Made by a program: the position numbers and the translations under genes. DNA of 7,070 nt from a bacterium (GTDB taxonomy: Bacteria > UBP18 > UBA7526), in assembly GCA_030619985.1 (NCBI GenBank), contig JAUXAI010000056.1:1-7070 (forward strand), read 5' to 3'. The notes under the pieces are model-generated. The model worked only from the letters and a program-made list of their open reading frames with translations, ran no database searches and had not been told where the DNA came from. This document shows positions 635-7,070 of the stretch, piece after piece. The first letter of the stretch is position 1. Each line of letters starts with the position of its first letter.

Positions 635-1544
635 TTTCTGGTGGTTGGCTCTTCCACCTATTATGCATCCACCACCACTGAGAGGGATATTTTCTAACAT
701 ACCTTTCGATGACCTTGGTAAGTCTTTGAGTATTGGTTATCAAATCTTTCTCCTTATTCCCAGTATTAACCAAAGGGACCTCGGGCTCTATGATTAACCG
801 ATGCCCCTTTCTTCCTTCTCTAATGATGCACATGGGCACAAGAGGGGCCCCGGTTCTCTGGGCAAAGACTACTGGGCCAGCGGGAGCAGAAGCCGGTCTT
901 CCAAAGAAGTCAACAAATACCCCTTCCTTCCCGGCATTCTGATCAATGGGAATAATGAGAACTTCCCCTCTTTTCAGCGAGGCCAAGGCTCTCTTGACCG
1001 CCAAACTCCTTGGCTTAGCAGGAATGCTTCCCATATTTGAGCGGTCGCGCAGTTCCTGCATGAACCGGGCCACCCTCTCATCCTTAGGGTCCTTAGCTAT
1101 GACGCTCGCCGGATAACTTTCGTTAGCTATCTTTCGCAGGAGAAGAGTAATATTCCCGATATGGCCAATGACTCCAATCGCCCCCTTCCCCTTAGCCAGA
1201 GCCCTATCTAAGTTCTCCTTTCCTTCAATGGCCAAGAGATGGGCATACCTCTTTCCATACTCCAGGACCCGAAACATCTCGAATCCCCCCTGAGCGATAT
1301 GGCAATAATTCTCTTTTATTATTCTCTTTAGTTCTTGAGGGGATTTTTCTTTCCCCAGGGCCATCCTGATATTCTCCAGGCCTATTCTACGATGCCTCCG
1401 GTCAATATAATAAGCCAGGTGACCAATACATCTCCCTCCCCAGAGAAGGAGATTAAGGGGAAGGAGCTTTATGGGAAGAAGGATGCTATACAAAGCAATT
1501 CCTCCCAAACTATGCCTGATCTTTTTCCTCAACCTTTTTAGCAT
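630..1544 (-). CDS. LpxL/HtrB-family lipid A acyltransferase, fourth in tandem
   Basis: This is predicted to be an inner-membrane enzyme moving an acyl chain from acyl-ACP onto lipid A or a related lipid. The start is taken as the ATG at 1544 (304 residues), because GGGGAG (1549-1554) sits 4 bases upstream. A TTG at 1556 would overlap that Shine-Dalgarno and add only four residues. An N-terminal hydrophobic helix covers about residues 14-36. The motif HIGNIT lies at 128-133, so His128 is kept but the acidic residue of HX4(D/E) is Thr133. DQNAG begins at Asp201, followed by FVDFFGRPA and AQRTGAPLVPM, and the C-terminus carries the family hallmark YPSQWWWMHNRWK. This copy keeps the DQ pair where its three neighbours have DR, so it is the most divergent of the four. 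Which acyl position it modifies cannot be read from the sequence. Confidence 0.9.
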   Translation of the reverse strand: MLKRLRKKIRHSLGGIALYSILLPIKLLPLNLLLWGGRCIGHLAYYIDRRHRRIGLENIRMALGKEKSPQELKRIIKENYCHIAQGGFEMFRVLEYGKRYAHLLAIEGKENLDRALAKGKGAIGVIGHIGNITLLLRKIANESYPASVIAKDPKDERVARFMQELRDRSNMGSIPAKPRSLAVKRALASLKRGEVLIIPIDQNAGKEGVFVDFFGRPASAPAGPVVFAQRTGAPLVPMCIIREGRKGHRLIIEPEVPLVNTGNKEKDLITNTQRLTKVIERYVRKYPSQWWWMHNRWKSQPPEK

Positions 1545-1548
1545 GGAT

Positions 1549-1554
1549 CTCCCC
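1549..1554 (-). promoter_or_regulatory. Shine-Dalgarno that sets the start of the fourth acyltransferase
   Basis: GGGGAG on the minus strand lies 4 bases before the ATG at 1544. It favours this ATG over the in-frame TTG at 1556, whose first base pair overlaps the site. Confidence 0.7.
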
Positions 1555-1558
1555 AAGA

Positions 1559-1672
1559 TATCCCCCTCGGGGATACTTCCATAGGGGTTTCACCCCTCTG
1601 GCGTTCACCAAATGTTCACTGGACATTTGGTTCACTGTCACCCCTTGGGGGCAAGCAGATTCTTTCCCCCAA
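1559..1672. repeat. Cluster of four small inverted repeats between acyltransferases 3 and 4
   Basis: The 133-base gap, the largest in the window, holds four separate hairpin-capable sequences. They are TATCCCC/GGGGATA with a 3-base loop (1559-1575), AGGGG/CCCCT with a 5-base loop (1583-1597), ACCAAATGT/ACATTTGGT with a 7-base loop (1607-1631), and TTGGGGG/CCCCCAA with a 14-base loop (1645-1672). The word GTTCAC occurs three times (1603, 1614, 1630) around the third. None is followed by a T-run in the direction of transcription, so I do not call a terminator. They could affect mRNA stability between the two genes. Confidence 0.75.
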
Positions 1673-1677
1673 ACCCC

Positions 1678-2646
1678 CTAATCCTCGGTATCGGAATTAT
1701 TGAAATTCCGATGCCTCTCGAGATAACGGGCGGTACCCCTCCATCTCTTGTAGATCCAGAAATATTGAGTGGGATACTTTCTCACATAATCCTCAATGAT
1801 CTTGGTAAACTTCTGGGTATTGATTAAGATATCCTTCTCTTTGTCTCCGGTCAGTTCTAACTCTACTGGTGGATCGATGACTATGGTATATCCTTCATTC
1901 CCTTTCTTTCGCACCACAAACATAGGCAAAAGAGTAGCGCCGCTTCTCTTTGCTAAGGTAACTGTTCCCGGGGCCGTGGGTGCTGGCTGGCCGAAGAAGT
2001 CCACCCAGATGGCTCCCTTATCTTCAAAGAAGTTCCTATCCTGCTGGAGATAGAGGATCTTATTCTCCCTTAACCATCTCAAGGATTCTCTTACTGCTCG
2101 ATGGGCTGGTAGGGCAGGAATGGAATGGATATTTATTCCTTTCTGCATATCTTTAATGAGTCGGGCTACCTTCTTATCCCGAACCTCCCGATAGAGAACG
2201 CCGAGGGGATAACCCTCCTGGACCAGTTTAGTGCCCAGAAGCATGAAGTTCCCCAGATGACCAGAGATAGTCATTATTCCCTTCCCTTTTGCTAAGGCCT
2301 TATCCAGGTTCTCTTTTCCCTCTATAGTGAACATGCGATCAATAGTTTCTTGAGAGAGGCGATAACAGCGAAGTAGTTCCACACTATACCTTGTTAAGTT
2401 ATGGTAGACCCTTTTAGCAATCCTCTTTAATTCTTCTTGAGATTTCTCTTTTTCAAAGGCAAGGTTCAGGTTCTTGAAGACCGTTTGATGATAAAGCCTT
2501 ATAAGCCAGGCGAAGTTGGCCATGCCCCGAGCAAAGAGATAGGCCACCCTCCAGGACATAGCGTTTATGAGCCAGATAGTAAACTTCAAAAGTATTCTAT
2601 AGACTATCCAGTACTTCCATTTCCTCTTAATCAGCCTTCTTCTCAT
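1678..2646 (-). CDS. LpxL/HtrB-family lipid A acyltransferase, third in tandem
   Basis: Predicted membrane-anchored acyltransferase of the lipid A late-acylation family, 322 residues from the ATG at 2646. That ATG overlaps the preceding gene's TGA as ATGA, the usual sign of translational coupling. The longer frame from a TTG at 2697 is less likely because its extra 17 residues are only the translation of a short tandem repeat. Hydrophobic N-terminal stretches lie at about residues 12-30. HLGNFM starts at His130, so the acidic residue of HX4(D/E) is replaced by Met135. QQDRN has its Asp at 203, followed by WVDFFGQPA, AKRSGATLLPMFVVR and a C-terminal YPTQYFWIYKRW block. The last dozen residues (RHRNFNNSDTED) have no family counterpart that I recognise and coincide with a palindrome. 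The substrate position is not deducible. Confidence 0.9.
   Translation of the reverse strand: MRRRLIKRKWKYWIVYRILLKFTIWLINAMSWRVAYLFARGMANFAWLIRLYHQTVFKNLNLAFEKEKSQEELKRIAKRVYHNLTRYSVELLRCYRLSQETIDRMFTIEGKENLDKALAKGKGIMTISGHLGNFMLLGTKLVQEGYPLGVLYREVRDKKVARLIKDMQKGINIHSIPALPAHRAVRESLRWLRENKILYLQQDRNFFEDKGAIWVDFFGQPAPTAPGTVTLAKRSGATLLPMFVVRKKGNEGYTIVIDPPVELELTGDKEKDILINTQKFTKIIEDYVRKYPTQYFWIYKRWRGTARYLERHRNFNNSDTED
1687..1715. repeat. Imperfect palindrome in the tail of the third acyltransferase
   Basis: GGTATCGGAATT and AATTCCGATGCC are inverted copies matching at 11 of 12 positions, separated by ATTGA. The palindrome lies inside the coding region and encodes the unusual NFNNSD tail, which looks like an inserted element extending the C-terminus. 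There is no adjacent T-run on the minus strand, so it is not a typical terminator. Confidence 0.75.
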
Positions 2647-3575
2647 CTCTGTCTTCTCTGTATTTCCTTCTGTGTCCTCTGTGGTACTGTCTTCCAACGC
2701 TTATAGGTCCAGAGCCATTGCTCGGGATATCTTCTGATGTAGGATTCAATAATCTTAGTAAACTTAGCACTATTTACCAAAATGTCTTTTTCTTTATTAC
2801 CTGTTACTTCTAACTCTACGGGGGAACCAAAGATAATTCTGTGTCTATTCATCTCTCTAACAACGAACATGGGCAGAATAGCAGCTCCGGTTCTCTTGGC
2901 CAATACTACCGGTCCAATGGGGGTTGCTGCGGGATAACCAAAGAAATCGACAAAGACCCCTTGAGGAGAATCACGGTCTGCCTGGATGCAGAGAACCTTA
3001 TTCTTCCTTAGCCATTTTAAGGATTTCCGAACTGAAGCATGAGAAGGAGAAGTGGGTATAAGGTCAATTCCTAAGTGGCGTCCAATATTAAAGAAGAGTT
3101 TTACAACTCTGGCATCACTTGCTCCATAAATGAAAGAGGCACAGGGATAACCTTCCTGAACCAATTTAGCGCCCATCAAAGGGAAATTACCCAGATGAGC
3201 AGAGAGTCCAATCACCCCTTTTCCCCGAGCCAGAGCAGCATCTAAATATTCTCTTCCCTGGATAGTGAATATTTTATTGATCTCTTCTTGGGAAAATTTG
3301 AAGACGCGTAACAGCTCACAGATGCTTTTAGCAATATTGCGGTAGGCTTCCCGAGCAATGGCTCTAATTTCATGGGGATCTTTCTCTCTTCCAAAAGCGC
3401 GATTAAGATTATCAAAGACTATCTGACGCCTGACACCCAGTATCCAGGCCAAGCCAGCCAGACCATTTGCCAGACCATACATTATCCTTTGGGGTAGAAT
3501 ATTTATCAAAGCAATAACTATTCTAAGCACTACCCATCCTACATTATGCTTGAGCCACCTTTTCACCCTTTTCAT
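2643..3575 (-). CDS. LpxL/HtrB-family lipid A acyltransferase, second in tandem
   Basis: Predicted inner-membrane lipid A acyltransferase of 310 residues, starting at the ATG at 3575 with GGAAGG (3584-3589) 8 bases upstream. A hydrophobic anchor covers about residues 13-28. HLGNFP begins at His127, placing Pro132 where the catalytic Glu or Asp of HX4(D/E) is expected. QADRDSPQG has its Asp at 200, then FVDFFGYPAATP, AKRTGAAILPMFVVRE, and YPEQWLWTYKRWK near the C-terminus. The final tail after KRWKTVPQ is arginine- and glutamine-rich and is the translation of the CTCTGT repeat array, not a family domain. Its TGA overlaps the next gene's ATG. It is most similar to the copy just upstream, sharing the DRD and YPEQWLWTYKRWK forms and a 44-base stretch with three differences, so these two are probably the most recent duplicates. 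Confidence 0.92.
   Translation of the reverse strand: MKRVKRWLKHNVGWVVLRIVIALINILPQRIMYGLANGLAGLAWILGVRRQIVFDNLNRAFGREKDPHEIRAIAREAYRNIAKSICELLRVFKFSQEEINKIFTIQGREYLDAALARGKGVIGLSAHLGNFPLMGAKLVQEGYPCASFIYGASDARVVKLFFNIGRHLGIDLIPTSPSHASVRKSLKWLRKNKVLCIQADRDSPQGVFVDFFGYPAATPIGPVVLAKRTGAAILPMFVVREMNRHRIIFGSPVELEVTGNKEKDILVNSAKFTKIIESYIRRYPEQWLWTYKRWKTVPQRTQKEIQRRQR
2647..2685. repeat. CTCTGT array at the junction of acyltransferases 2 and 3
   Basis: CTCTGT occurs at 2647, 2656 and 2677 with a TTCTGT variant at 2668, giving units of about 9 bases (one spacing is 12). Read on the minus strand this is an ACAGAG-type array. It encodes the C-terminal tail of the second acyltransferase and immediately precedes the ATG of the third. 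In another frame it would encode the spurious acidic leader EDTEGNTEKTE. Its purine-rich minus strand (GAGAAGACAGAG) may also serve as the ribosome-binding region for the downstream gene. Confidence 0.8.
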
Positions 3576-3592
3576 CCTAATAACCTTCCAAT

Positions 3593-3630
3593 CTAACTAA
3601 TCCGCTTCCGCGCTTCGCTTACAACTAACT
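3593..3630. repeat. Direct repeats around a GC-rich iterated core, between acyltransferases 1 and 2
   Basis: AACTAA at 3595-3600 and 3623-3628 flanks a core built from CGCTTC, CGCGCTTC and CGCTT (3601-3620). This fills most of the 57-base gap. The layout, short AT-rich words around a GC-rich core, recalls the arrays upstream of waaA and of the DUF374 gene, although the sequences differ. Confidence 0.65.
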
Positions 3631-3632
3631 TT

Positions 3633-4538
3633 TTAACTTTCTCTTTTAGGTGGTTGGGTTTTCCAGCGCTTATAGGTCCAGAGCCACTGCTCGGGATATT
3701 TTCTCACATAATTCTCCAAGATTTTGGTATACTTTTGCACATTTACCAGGATATCCTTCTCTCTATCGCCAGTCGATTCCAGTTCCATTGGAGAATCGAT
3801 GATAATCCTATGTCTATCGTTCTTTTCTCTAATAGTAATCATGGGAAGGATGGTGGCTCCGGTTCTTTTGGCTAAAATAACAGGGCCAGGAGCAGTGGCC
3901 GCTGGATGGCCGAAGAAATCAACAAATATCCCTCTGGGGAAGTCCCGATCCCCGTGGAGACCCAAGATCTTGTTCTCCTTTAGCCAGGCTAAGGACTTCT
4001 GGGCCGAGACCCGACGAGGTAAGGCAGGAATGATAGTCAAACCTAAATGATTCCCGATATCTGCGAAGAGCCTTGCTCCCTTCTTGAGGCTGGTGCCATA
4101 CATAACAAAAGCAAATGGAGAGCCCTCCTGGGCGAGCCTTGCTCCCATTAAAACAAAGTTGCCGAAGTGACCTATAAGGGCGATCACTCCCTTTCCTTTC
4201 TCAAGGACTTTCTCCAGGTTCTCCTTCCCCTCTATGGTGAACATCTCTCTAAGTTTCTCAGGTGAGATTTTATACTTGGATCCTTCACAGCCATTCTTAA
4301 TCCAATTGCAATAGCTCTGAAAGGCAATCCTTTTAATCTCTTCTTTAGACTTCTCTTTCCCAAAGGCACGATTGAGATTCTCGAAGACTATTTTGTGGAA
4401 GATGCCCAATACCCAGGCAATCCTCGCTAAAATCTCTGCTAAAAGATAAAGTGCTCTCCAGGGAAGGATGTTAGCCAGCCAGACGAAACTTTTTAAAGAT
4501 AGATATTCTAACTCATGCTTTATTTTTTTCTTCTTCAC
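3633..4538 (-). CDS. LpxL/HtrB-family lipid A acyltransferase, first in tandem
   Basis: Predicted inner-membrane lipid A acyltransferase, 301 residues. The start is a GTG at 4538 overlapping the waaA stop codon as GTGA; no other Met occurs before residue 99, and there is no well-spaced Shine-Dalgarno, so translation probably depends on coupling to waaA. The N-terminus is very basic (MKKKKIKHE) followed by a hydrophobic segment at about 14-45. HFGNFV begins at His124, so Val129 takes the place of the acidic catalytic residue. HGDRDFPRG has its Asp at 197, then FVDFFGHPAATAPGP, AKRTGATILPM, and a C-terminal YPEQWLWTYKRWK. Coupling to waaA fits an acyltransferase acting on Kdo-lipid A, as E. coli LpxL does, but the altered active site leaves activity and specificity open. 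Confidence 0.92.
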   Translation of the reverse strand: MKKKKIKHELEYLSLKSFVWLANILPWRALYLLAEILARIAWVLGIFHKIVFENLNRAFGKEKSKEEIKRIAFQSYCNWIKNGCEGSKYKISPEKLREMFTIEGKENLEKVLEKGKGVIALIGHFGNFVLMGARLAQEGSPFAFVMYGTSLKKGARLFADIGNHLGLTIIPALPRRVSAQKSLAWLKENKILGLHGDRDFPRGIFVDFFGHPAATAPGPVILAKRTGATILPMITIREKNDRHRIIIDSPMELESTGDREKDILVNVQKYTKILENYVRKYPEQWLWTYKRWKTQPPKRES

Positions 4539-5827
4539 TCCAACAATTTCCCTATCAGTTCCACAGTTCTCTCTGATGCTCCTTGATGTCTCTTAACAAT
4601 TTCTTGAGCCCTTTTTCCTGTCTTCTCTCTTTTTTCAGAGTTTTTTAAGAGGCTTAAAATATTTTCTAATAGTTCTTCCTTATCCCTAACTTGGATTCCT
4701 CCTTTTCCTTCCAGAAGCAATCGGGCGCTCTCTATGAAGTTATGCATATAGGGACCAAAGATAGGCGCCTTACCCAGAGCAGCAGGCTCTAAGATATTAT
4801 GTCCTCCCACAGGAACCAAGCTCCCTCCCACAAAGACTACTGTTGCCAGAGAATAAACCTTTGCCAATTCACCGATAGTATCGAGAAGGATGACTGGAGT
4901 TCGGAGTTCGCCTGCCTGCCGGCGAGGCAGGGAGTTCGGAGTTCGGAGTAGTTGGCTTCGGCGGATAGAAAAGAGATTTTTATTCTTACAGATAGCCTCT
5001 ACTTCAGGAATGCGTTCTGGGTGGCGAGGAGCAAGGATGAGTTTTAAGTTTGGAAATTCTTCTTTTGCTTTCTGGTAAACATCTAAGACGATTTCTTCCT
5101 CCTCAGGATGGGTGCTTCCTGCGACCAAAATCAGATCTTTTGAAGAAATTCTTAACTCTTCCGCTAATTTTTCCCTGTCTGGAATTTCAGTTTTCAGTCC
5201 ATCGAATTTAACATTGCCCGTAGTGTGGACCTTTTCCTCTGGAGCCCCCAAAGAGATGATTCGCTCCTCATCCAGTTTAGACTGCATGCTGAATAGATCG
5301 ATATTAGAGAGTACTCTTTTTAGAAAAGGCTTTATTATTCTATAGCCTTTAAAAGAACTGGGTGAGATCCGACCATTAACCACTGCCAGAGGAATTTCCC
5401 TTTTCTTTGTCTCTCTTATAAAATTGGGCCAGAGCTCGGTTTCGACCATGATGAAGAGTCTTGGTTGGATAACCTTCAAAACTTTATTTACGATCCATTT
5501 AAAGTCTAAGGGAAAGTAGATGATTTCCTTGGGATCAGGGATGGCCTTCCTCGCCATATCCTGGCCAGTATCAGTTACGGTGGAGATTAGAAAATTGTGT
5601 CTGGGGAATTTCTTTCTTATAGCATCTATTATAGGAGAGGCAGCGATTACCTCTCCCACGCTTACTGCATGAACCCAGATAATATCTTTATTCTTTACTT
5701 GAGGAATAAATCCTAGACGCTGCCTCAATCCCTTCTTATACTTCCCCTTAGTGACCATTCTGAATAAAAAGTAGGGAATGGAAAAGAGCAAAAATAAAAA
5801 TAGCAAGAAACTATAAATAAGATACAT
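4535..5827 (-). CDS. waaA: 3-deoxy-D-manno-octulosonic acid (Kdo) transferase WaaA/KdtA
   Basis: WaaA transfers Kdo from CMP-Kdo to lipid IVA on the cytoplasmic side of the inner membrane. I use the ATG at 5827 (430 residues, normal for the family). It has GGAG 5 bases upstream, and the extra ten residues from a TTG at 5857 are repeat-derived. A single membrane anchor covers residues 2-23. The acceptor domain shows LRQRLGF, then HAVSVGEV with Glu59 at the place of the proposed catalytic base, and ETELWPN at 129-135. The donor domain shows AGSTHPEEE, LAPRHPER, DTIGEL, FVGGSLVPVGGHNILEP (CMP-Kdo site, GHNILEP at 342-348) and FGPYMHNF. An insert at about residues 292-311 (LRTP, LPRRQAGE, LRTP) comes from an inserted repeat-plus-palindrome. 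How many Kdo units it adds cannot be judged. The stop overlaps the next gene by 4 bases. Confidence 0.96.
   Translation of the reverse strand: MYLIYSFLLFLFLLFSIPYFLFRMVTKGKYKKGLRQRLGFIPQVKNKDIIWVHAVSVGEVIAASPIIDAIRKKFPRHNFLISTVTDTGQDMARKAIPDPKEIIYFPLDFKWIVNKVLKVIQPRLFIMVETELWPNFIRETKKREIPLAVVNGRISPSSFKGYRIIKPFLKRVLSNIDLFSMQSKLDEERIISLGAPEEKVHTTGNVKFDGLKTEIPDREKLAEELRISSKDLILVAGSTHPEEEEIVLDVYQKAKEEFPNLKLILAPRHPERIPEVEAICKNKNLFSIRRSQLLRTPNSLPRRQAGELRTPVILLDTIGELAKVYSLATVVFVGGSLVPVGGHNILEPAALGKAPIFGPYMHNFIESARLLLEGKGGIQVRDKEELLENILSLLKNSEKREKTGKRAQEIVKRHQGASERTVELIGKLLE
4896..4950. repeat. In-frame palindrome flanked by 7-base repeats inside waaA
   Basis: GGAGTTC occurs at 4896, 4903, 4931 and 4938, with a partial copy at 4945. 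Between the two pairs lies a 21-base core (4910-4930), exactly three 7-base units. It forms a stem CCTGCCT/AGGCAGG (4911-4917 and 4925-4931) around a loop containing GCCGGC. The whole element is translated as LRTP, NSLPRRQAGE, LRTP in the WaaA donor domain. The 21-base core is divisible by three and leaves the frame intact. LPRRQAG-type peptides are ones I recall as recurrent in uncultivated candidate-phylum genomes, analogous to Rickettsia palindromic elements. Confidence 0.85.
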
Positions 5828-5832
5828 AAATG

Positions 5833-5836
5833 CTCC
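5833..5836 (-). promoter_or_regulatory. Shine-Dalgarno that sets the waaA start
   Basis: GGAG on the minus strand lies 5 bases before the ATG at 5827. It supports that ATG over the upstream in-frame TTG at 5857, and sits at the edge of the repeat array. Confidence 0.6.
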
Positions 5837-5837
5837 G

Positions 5838-5903
5838 CTACAGGCTGCCGGCCACAAGCTACAGGTTTTTAGCTTGGAGCTTGGAGCCCGAGGCTTGAAG
5901 CTT
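5838..5903. repeat. 7-base tandem array between the DUF374 gene and waaA
   Basis: CTACAGG at 5838-5844 and 5859-5865 brackets CTGCCGG and CCACAAG, so the copies are exactly 21 bases apart and the core is two 7-base units. After TTTTT, a second array reads AGCTTGG, AGCTTGG, AGCCCG, AGGCTTG, AAGCTT (5871-5903). Together these fill the 74-base gap and reach into the TAA stop of the DUF374 gene at 5902-5904. Confidence 0.8.
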
Positions 5904-6549
5904 ATTCCTTAAAGTAGTTGTCTGCTTCCTGGGTAAGTCTATTTAAGACTTTTTCTAGTTCTTGGGTCTTTTCTTTTATTATCTTCTGTGAGGCTTTAGG
6001 AGGAACCCTAATCGGTTCCCCGTATATGATTATTCCCCGGCTAAAAAAACGGGGAAGGATGAACTTGCTCCAGTTATCGAGATAGACCTTCTTTCTATTA
6101 GCATTGGAGCTCAAAGGGATAATAGGCATCTGAGTCTTCTGGGCGAGGTGAATTACCCCTTCTTTTGCCTTATAGATGGGGCCCCTCGGGCCATCAGGAG
6201 TAAAGGCACCGTCAAAACCCTCTTTTAATTTCCGGGCCATCAGAAGAAGCGCCCTGCCTCCACCGCGCGATGTAGAACCCCGAATGGTCCTACTCCCTAA
6301 GTGGTGGAGGATGCGAGCAAGATACTCACCATCACGATGTCTGCTCACCAGAGCATAGATACTCTGATTGCGCAGGTGATAGGTGGGTAGAAGCATCCTT
6401 CCATGCCAGAAGGCATAGATGACTCTTTCTCCCTTTTTGCGAAGCCTTTCAACAGATTCTTCTCCCCTTACCTCTATTTTCAACATCTTCCCCAAGAGAA
6501 GCATAAAGAGCCAACCGAGAAAGGACATTATGCTTGGAGAAAATTTCAT
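5902..6549 (-). CDS. DUF374-family lysophospholipid acyltransferase-like protein
   Basis: This is a 215-residue protein of the DUF374 family, a membrane-associated branch of the glycerolipid acyltransferase superfamily. The expected motifs are present in order: a hydrophobic N-terminus at residues 8-22, AFWHGRMLL with the candidate catalytic His49, SRHRDGE at 69-75, GSTSRGGG at 91-98, and TPDGPRGP at 117-124. The length is typical, so the protein looks complete and functional. DUF374 genes often sit beside waaA and msbA, as here. As I recall, the Helicobacter LpxJ enzyme, a lipid A late acyltransferase, belongs to this broad group, so an acylation step before or around Kdo addition is plausible but not proven. 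The start is the ATG at 6549 with GAGGGG 3 bases upstream; the ATG at 6528 is an alternative that would shorten the protein by seven residues. Confidence 0.9.
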   Translation of the reverse strand: MKFSPSIMSFLGWLFMLLLGKMLKIEVRGEESVERLRKKGERVIYAFWHGRMLLPTYHLRNQSIYALVSRHRDGEYLARILHHLGSRTIRGSTSRGGGRALLLMARKLKEGFDGAFTPDGPRGPIYKAKEGVIHLAQKTQMPIIPLSSNANRKKVYLDNWSKFILPRFFSRGIIIYGEPIRVPPKASQKIIKEKTQELEKVLNRLTQEADNYFKE

Positions 6550-6602: not shown

Positions 6603-6686
6603 CTGGTTACTGTTCGTCCGCCCCAAAGGGGCGAGACCTCGCCTTCGGCGGGCTGGTTACTGGTTACTTTGGGATTCACGGTTCAC
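6603..6686. repeat. Two palindromes between CTGGTTACTG direct repeats, plus 7-base units at the flippase 3' end
   Basis: CTGGTTACTG occurs at 6603-6612 and 6653-6662. Between the copies lie two GC-rich hairpins: CGCCCC/GGGGCG with loop AAA (6619-6633) and CGCC/GGCG with loop TTC (6640-6650). GGTTACT is tandem at 6655 and 6662, and GATTCAC then GGTTCAC at 6673 and 6680. The array contains the TAA stop (6657-6659) of the flippase gene and encodes its last residues. No T-run follows the hairpins on the minus strand, so they are not called terminators. Confidence 0.8.
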
Positions 6687-7070
6687 TGTGTCCCTGAATT
6701 GTATCTCATAGAGTCTCTTGTAGAGTCCACCCTGAGCCAGAAGCTCCTCATGAGTTCCCTTTTGAACAATCCTTCCCTTCTCCAGGACGATGATTTTATC
6801 TGCATTCCTCACTGTTGATAGCCGATGGGCGATGACGAAGGTCGTCCTTCCCCTCATTAGTTTATCCAAGGCCTCCTGAACCAGTCTCTCAGACTCACTA
6901 TCCAAGGCACTAGTGGCCTCATCCAGAATTAAAATGGGAGGGTTCTTCAATATTGCCCGAGCAATGGCTAATCTCTGCCTCTCCCCTCCAGATAACTTCA
7001 CCCCCCGCTCTCCGATAATGGTATCGTAGTCCTTTTCTGTGGCCATGATGAAGTCATGGGCATTGGCTGC
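6657..7070 (-). CDS. msbA: MsbA-type lipid A ABC transporter, C-terminal part of the ATPase domain
   Basis: Only the last 137 residues are in the window; the frame runs off the right edge, and the Met at 7046 is internal because the sequence AANAHDFI precedes it in frame. The nucleotide-binding domain shows [10 protein letters not shown] (ABC signature LSGGERQR), Walker [13 protein letters not shown] with the catalytic Glu and D-loop, and the switch His in [11 protein letters not shown]. Walker A and the membrane domain lie beyond the window. Exporters of this type flip lipid A across the inner membrane as homodimers. The MsbA assignment rests on the family sequence and on its position heading a waaA/lpxK cluster; another lipid or drug exporter of the same class cannot be excluded. 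The last residues ([10 protein letters not shown]) are encoded by 7-base repeats and are probably not part of the original protein. The next gene begins 107 bases downstream. Confidence 0.88.

Follow-up and report, generated by a model that had tools for sequence, protein, structure and literature searches.

The stretch of DNA analyzed here (the window) comprises 7070 bp at the start of contig JAUXAI010000056.1 from a bacterium of the UBP18 lineage. Every gene in it lies on the minus strand, and transcription runs from the end of an msbA-type exporter gene through a DUF374 gene, waaA, and four tandem genes of the PF03279 (Lip_A_acyltrans) family to the start of lpxK (Table 1). PF03279 also contains the late (secondary) lipid A acyltransferases LpxL/HtrB and LpxM/MsbB. 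The four tandem products match the family model over nearly their full length at 138–160 bits, far above its gathering cut-off of 22.3, and share 38–56% pairwise identity, so they are not recent copies of one another. Each retains the block I His, but the residue five positions later (+5), which is Asp or Glu in the HX4(D/E) motif of LpxL and LpxM and has long been counted among the catalytic residues, is Thr, Met, Pro, or Val; we name the copies T, M, P, and V accordingly. The genes are tightly packed: the V copy begins with a GTG inside the waaA stop (4-nt overlap), and the P-copy stop and M-copy start, as read from the sequence, share an ATGA at 2643–2646.

Table 1 Features of the 7070-bp window
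Feature	Position	Strand	Details
lpxK, partial, directly downstream of the four copies	2–589	−	PF02606, TIGR00682
LpxL-type gene, T type	630–1544	−	HIGNIT; block II Arg kept; DQN; PF03279 159 bits; likely ATG start at 1544, program-made open reading frame (ORF) extends to 1556
Block III DQN (T copy)	936–944	−	First Asp is the proposed His partner; invariant in alignments
Block I HIGNIT	1146–1163	−	+5 is Thr
LpxL-type gene, M type	1678–2646	−	HLGNFM; block II Arg replaced by Gln; DRN; PF03279 160.1 bits; ATG start at 2646, ORF from TTG 2697
Block III DRN (M copy)	2032–2040	−	Proposed partner Asp
Block I HLGNFM	2242–2259	−	+5 is Met
LpxL-type gene, P type	2643–3575	−	HLGNFP; block II Arg replaced by Gly; DRD; PF03279 158.4 bits
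Block III DRD (P copy)	2970–2978	−	D200, aligned with PatA E200 and LpxM D192
Block I HLGNFP	3180–3197	−	+5 is Pro
LpxL-type gene, V type	3633–4538	−	HFGNFV; block II Arg replaced by Gly; DRD; PF03279 138.3 bits
Block III DRD (V copy)	3942–3950	−	Proposed partner Asp
Block I HFGNFV	4152–4169	−	+5 is Val
waaA/kdtA, Kdo (3-deoxy-D-manno-octulosonate) transferase, directly upstream of the four copies	4535–5857	−	PF04413, NF004388
DUF374 (LpxJ-type) acyltransferase	5902–6549	−	PF04028 98.2 bits; HGRMLL
msbA-type ABC exporter, partial	6657–7070	−	PF00005; full-length orthologue with ABC_membrane domain in locus L252

Loss of the motif acid in four conserved genes

The block I motifs lie exactly where an earlier note on this DNA had placed them. 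Alignment with relatives and with E. coli LpxL (HFLTLE) and LpxM (HGWAVD), both of which align as expected, leaves the motif ungapped, and no shift restores an Asp or Glu. A misaligned motif was therefore rejected as an explanation: there is no gap near it, and every copy is free of Asp and Glu from +1 to +13, with a Glu at +14 in all four as the first acid after the His. Among 83 proteins sampled domain-wide from unrelated genomes, the +5 residue is Glu in 74, Asp in 8, and Thr in 1; since this sample was drawn from the better-scoring matches and left out low-scoring ones, acid-less proteins may be somewhat commoner than 1/83. Four copies out of four without the acid is far from this family background. 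The DUF374 protein also lacks an acid at +5, and all five late-acyltransferase candidates of the operon are without HX4(D/E). The earlier note's statement that every copy has lost the acid holds for this cluster but not genome-wide, as two ordinary HLGNWE copies are present elsewhere in the source genome, away from the lipid A cluster. Its description of the other family blocks as intact is mostly accurate, except that the M copy reads DRN instead of DRD or DQN and WVDFFG instead of FVDFFG. The block I His is kept in all 230 distinct relatives examined, and the first residue of block III is acidic in all of them (Asp in 229, Glu in 1), including the 68 that have no acid at +5.

The frames are open, and orthologues from the genus and family, in several UBP18-lineage genomes, all carry the same +5 residue as the corresponding window copy (V, P, M, or T). 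Ratios of nonsynonymous to synonymous substitution rates (dN/dS) range from 0.07 to 0.41 for the window-type copies, with the weakest constraint in the P copy (up to 0.41), versus 0.11–0.20 for the ordinary copies in these genomes. These data bear out the earlier judgment that simple decay is unlikely, and we rejected pseudogenes on the same grounds. Assembly error was likewise rejected, as the same residues recur in independently assembled metagenome-assembled genomes (MAGs). Some genomes have three copies instead of four (V-M-L in G003, P-M-T in G004 and G005), to which incomplete assembly may contribute. In the MAG that contains the window, a different contig (G000:C49:1-3000, L038) begins with a second M-T-lpxK run that is 87–89% identical to the window copies and likely represents a co-binned relative or a second operon. 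In G005, the P-type gene (L057:5332-6486) carries an in-frame repeat insertion of ~55 residues in a C-terminal loop.

An acid-less clade across phyla

A genome scan with an alignment of acid-less proteins recovered relatives from ~30 Omnitrophota species (mostly HFGNFP), Myxococcota, and Thermodesulfobacteriota, counts that are biased because the peptide patterns used favor Phe or Ile at +4. In trees built with the +4, +5, and block II Arg columns masked, the acid-less proteins of these three phyla and of UBP18 form one clade, with ultrafast bootstrap (UFBoot) and Shimodaira–Hasegawa-like approximate likelihood ratio test (SH-aLRT) values of 100 and 96 in the careful tree and an SH-aLRT value of 95 in a quick tree. 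The clade of the careful tree comprises 41 acid-less rows and one HIGNFE row and is further marked by Phe at +4 (41/42), Ser at −2, Lys or Arg at +10, Asp or Glu at position 154, and Cys at position 181. A separate, independent loss occurs outside it in genome G254 (L152), where HMGNGG sits in an otherwise ordinary branch. The new part of this work is the phylogenetic result: the acid-less proteins make up a single old clade, which in a lipid A operon has grown to four genes in tandem. Because they retain the His-Asp pair that carries out the chemistry in crystal structures of relatives, the four proteins are probably working enzymes of an undescribed branch of a known family; our literature search turned up no paper covering LpxL in Omnitrophota or the lipid A of UBP18.

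The clade also differs in the block II Arg, which is missing in 13 of 43 clade rows (seven changes) versus 1 of 120 rows outside (one change). In the window it is lost from the M (Gln), P (Gly), and V (Gly) copies and kept only in T, while the Omnitrophota members keep the Arg with the Glu gone, so the pair was not simply lost together. Covariation between the +5 acid and the Arg yields only three independent contrasts on the tree and no significance, and the relaxed constraint on the Arg is thus descriptive. The pattern fits Glu and Arg having been lost jointly in UBP18, with the independent contrasts too few to decide.

Two MAGs labelled Clostridia (L070 and L093) have, directly downstream of waaA, a gene for a HIGNFE or HMGNFE protein whose block II Arg is replaced by Trp. 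The L070 protein is placed inside the acid-less clade; the Glu was therefore either kept or regained there.

Active site and proposed mechanism

AlphaFold2 models reached a predicted local distance difference test (pLDDT) score of 95.8 for the P copy and 93.7 for the other protein modeled. The best structural match of the P-copy model is PatA, the mycobacterial phosphatidylinositol mannoside (PIM) acyltransferase (Z 30.4, root mean square deviation 2.3 Å over 245 residues), and it also superimposes on LpxM (Z 29.1, 5.1 Å over 266 residues). Profile alignment pairs H127, P132, the block II Arg column, and D200 of the P copy with H122, E127, R159, and D192 of LpxM and with H126, D131, R164, and E200 of PatA, the LpxM and PatA residues being matched by residue counting on chains 5kn7 and 5f2t. 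In PatA, H126 and E200 are bonded at 2.8 Å and the H126A and E200A mutants are dead, while D131 has a structural role and D131A retains 37% activity; its authors propose the block III acid for HtrB/MsbB as well (PMC4792965). In Acinetobacter LpxM, H122 lies 2.6 Å from D192 and 7.6 Å from E127, which is ion-paired to R159 (reviewed in PMC6286764). Across family structures, the +5 acid is 7.6–8.5 Å from the His and paired with Arg (PMC6286764, PMC9597891). VexE is an active enzyme with Tyr at +5; no activity was detectable after mutation of its His, and mutation of its block III Asp lowered activity substantially (PMC9597891).

The earlier note had guessed that the active site is completed by the conserved Asp of DRD/DQN, and the alignment of this Asp with PatA E200 and LpxM D192, each hydrogen-bonded to the catalytic His, agrees with that guess. 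Its premise that the +5 acid is needed for activity was too strong an alarm given the distance from the His and the working Tyr enzyme; what does call for explanation is how these enzymes manage without a Glu whose removal is so costly in E. coli LpxL (see below). Of its suggested subfamily with altered chemistry, the subfamily survives as an old multi-phylum clade; altered chemistry is not needed, because the +5 acid is far from the His and Arg-paired and VexE works with Tyr. These structures account for most of the concern over catalysis. In the P-copy model, the +5 residue belongs to the first turn of a helix (residues 131–140), a position at which Pro should be well tolerated.

From the observed motif loss, His and Asp retention, single clade, purifying selection, predicted fold, and operon, we propose, with a probability of roughly 80%, that the four genes, which lie in a nearly complete lipid A operon, encode active late lipid A acyltransferases of a separate clade of the LpxL/HtrB-like family that rely on the His and block III Asp as a dyad and do without the second, Glu-Arg pair. 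The block I His (H127 in the P copy) would act as general base and take a proton from the acceptor hydroxyl, with the block III Asp (D200) holding and tuning it in the manner of PatA E200 and Acinetobacter LpxM D192. The acceptor hydroxyl would then attack the thioester of the acyl-acyl carrier protein (acyl-ACP). Ordinary LpxL/LpxM enzymes have a second polar pair, the +5 Glu and the block II Arg, which in this proposal has been dropped: the Glu is lost throughout the clade, along with a +4 change from Trp to Phe or Ile, and the constraint on the Arg is relaxed, with three of the four window copies lacking it. Catalytic activity, the acyl-ACP donor, the lipid A acceptor, and the site served by each paralogue are what we infer here. 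Others have proposed that the Glu-Arg pair of Acinetobacter LpxM forms an additional catalytic dyad that serves a second transfer. An unlikely elaboration is that loss of this pair made each paralogue strictly one-site, the four being single-position specialists on different primary chains that, with the DUF374 enzyme, would produce an unusually highly acylated lipid A.

The window copies share with the LpxL/HtrB and LpxM/MsbB enzymes of E. coli and A. baumannii the PF03279 family, the predicted fold, the catalytic His, the block III Asp (H127 and D200 are invariant), the C-terminal W-rich block, and a lipid A gene setting. They differ in having Thr, Met, Pro, or Val at +5, Phe or Ile instead of Trp at +4, and, in three copies, no equivalent of LpxL R169 or LpxM R159. 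Their scores against the NCBIfam LpxL/LpxM models stay below the cut-offs (at most 121 bits versus 297.8 for TIGR02207 and at most 64 versus 336.05 for TIGR02208). Their operon setting is only suggestive of the LpxL/LpxM reaction, in which a primary hydroxyacyl chain of lipid A receives an acyl group from acyl-ACP. PatA has the same catalytic pair of His and block III acid but retains Asp at +5 and the block II Arg and acts on PIM; the window copies score 83–124 bits against its model NF005919 (cut-off 209). VexE, the Vi antigen C-6 hydroxyacyltransferase (PMC9597891), shares an uncharged +5 residue and dependence on the His and block III Asp, yet is a divergent tetratricopeptide repeat-containing protein that acts on UDP-N-acetylglucosamine, and the likeness is drawn from its published description. 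LpxJ (DUF374/PF04028, PMC6148475) represents another late lipid A acyltransferase family without HX4(D/E), with a proposed His-block III Asp pair and one member in this operon, but PF04028 is a different Pfam family that matches 5902–6549 and none of the four copies.

Genomic setting and competing explanations

The order msbA-DUF374-waaA-lpxL(3–4)-lpxK is conserved across the family. In G002 the run extends through bamA, skp, lpxD, lpxC-fabZ, lpxA, lpxI, lpxB, msbA, DUF374, waaA, four lpxL-type genes, lpxK, and a heptosyltransferase-type gene, and lpxC, lpxB, lpxD, and lpxA were found in nearly all six genomes. In locus L252, LpxC is fused to a FabZ-type domain (14511-15893) and an N-terminal GFO/IDH/MocA oxidoreductase domain is fused to LpxB (10507-12576). 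Lipid A is the best-supported acceptor in UBP18 only, because the gene setting differs outside this lineage.

Several observations weigh against active His/Asp-dyad enzymes of lipid A synthesis. In E. coli LpxL, E137A costs ~3000-fold and H132A 1000-fold, while D200A costs only 15-fold (PMC6286764), so that the +5 Glu outweighs the block III Asp in this enzyme and the clade must position donor or acceptor in some other way. No residue clearly replaces the +5 Glu, and the clade alignment holds no universal replacement acid. An Asp or Glu at block II position 154, mostly Asn in ordinary acid-containing enzymes, is present in 38 of 42 clade rows, but the V copy has Leu at this position. Most clade members from outside UBP18 do not adjoin lipid A genes, and their substrate may therefore differ.

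Three other explanations were weighed. At least one copy could be a non-catalytic paralogue with a scaffolding or regulatory role toward the HLGNWE copies or the DUF374 enzyme, which would accord with the nearly dead LpxL E137A and LpxM E127 mutants (PMC6286764), the two acid-containing copies kept elsewhere in the genome, and the weak constraint on the P copy; we regard this as very unlikely, since every one of the 68 acid-less proteins has the His and the block III Asp, which a non-catalytic protein would not need, purifying selection acts on all four diverged copies, and VexE and PatA D131A show that the fold can dispense with the +5 acid. The position 154 acid or the +14 Glu, which all four window copies have, might instead replace the +5 Glu. 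This is the least probable explanation, as the V copy lacks the former, and the latter, present in only 20 of 42 clade rows and lying beyond the helix that begins at +4, was itself judged an unlikely substitute.

It is also quite unlikely, if slightly less so than a loss of catalysis, that the enzymes are active on an acceptor other than lipid A, such as another glycolipid or a capsule anchor, with the Glu-Arg loss reflecting that acceptor. PatA and VexE acylate other sugars with the same fold, and in Omnitrophota the P-type gene lies away from the lipid A genes, often after an adenosine-specific kinase gene, while a separate LpxL-type protein adjoins lpxK and waaA. In UBP18, however, the genes are flanked by waaA and lpxK, show 4-nt overlaps, and belong to a complete gene cluster for the lipid A pathway, and two Myxococcota-labelled MAGs have the acid-less gene near lpxC.

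The proposed His/Asp-dyad acyltransferases bear on the role of the +5 Glu in LpxL/LpxM, which has been read either as the catalytic partner of the His or as part of substrate binding or a second dyad with the Arg. A natural Glu-less clade with members that keep and lack the Arg is ready material for separating the two roles. In Omnitrophota, UBP18, and some Myxococcota and Thermodesulfobacteriota, late acyltransferases that look functional would be overlooked by any annotation or inhibitor design that relies on the HX4(D/E) motif.

In about half of the Omnitrophota loci L067-L130, the gene immediately before the acid-less one encodes the adenosine-specific kinase (PF04008), and a DUF502 gene often lies downstream. 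Four other Omnitrophota loci (L137, L143, L159, and L163) have an lpxK-adjacent LpxL-type frame of ~650 residues with a canonical WE motif, its length indicating a fusion with a second part. In the window itself, waaA contains an in-frame palindromic repeat, cctgcctgccggcgaggcaggg, between gagttcggagttcgg repeats at 4890–4960, which resembles a small mobile or spreading repeat.

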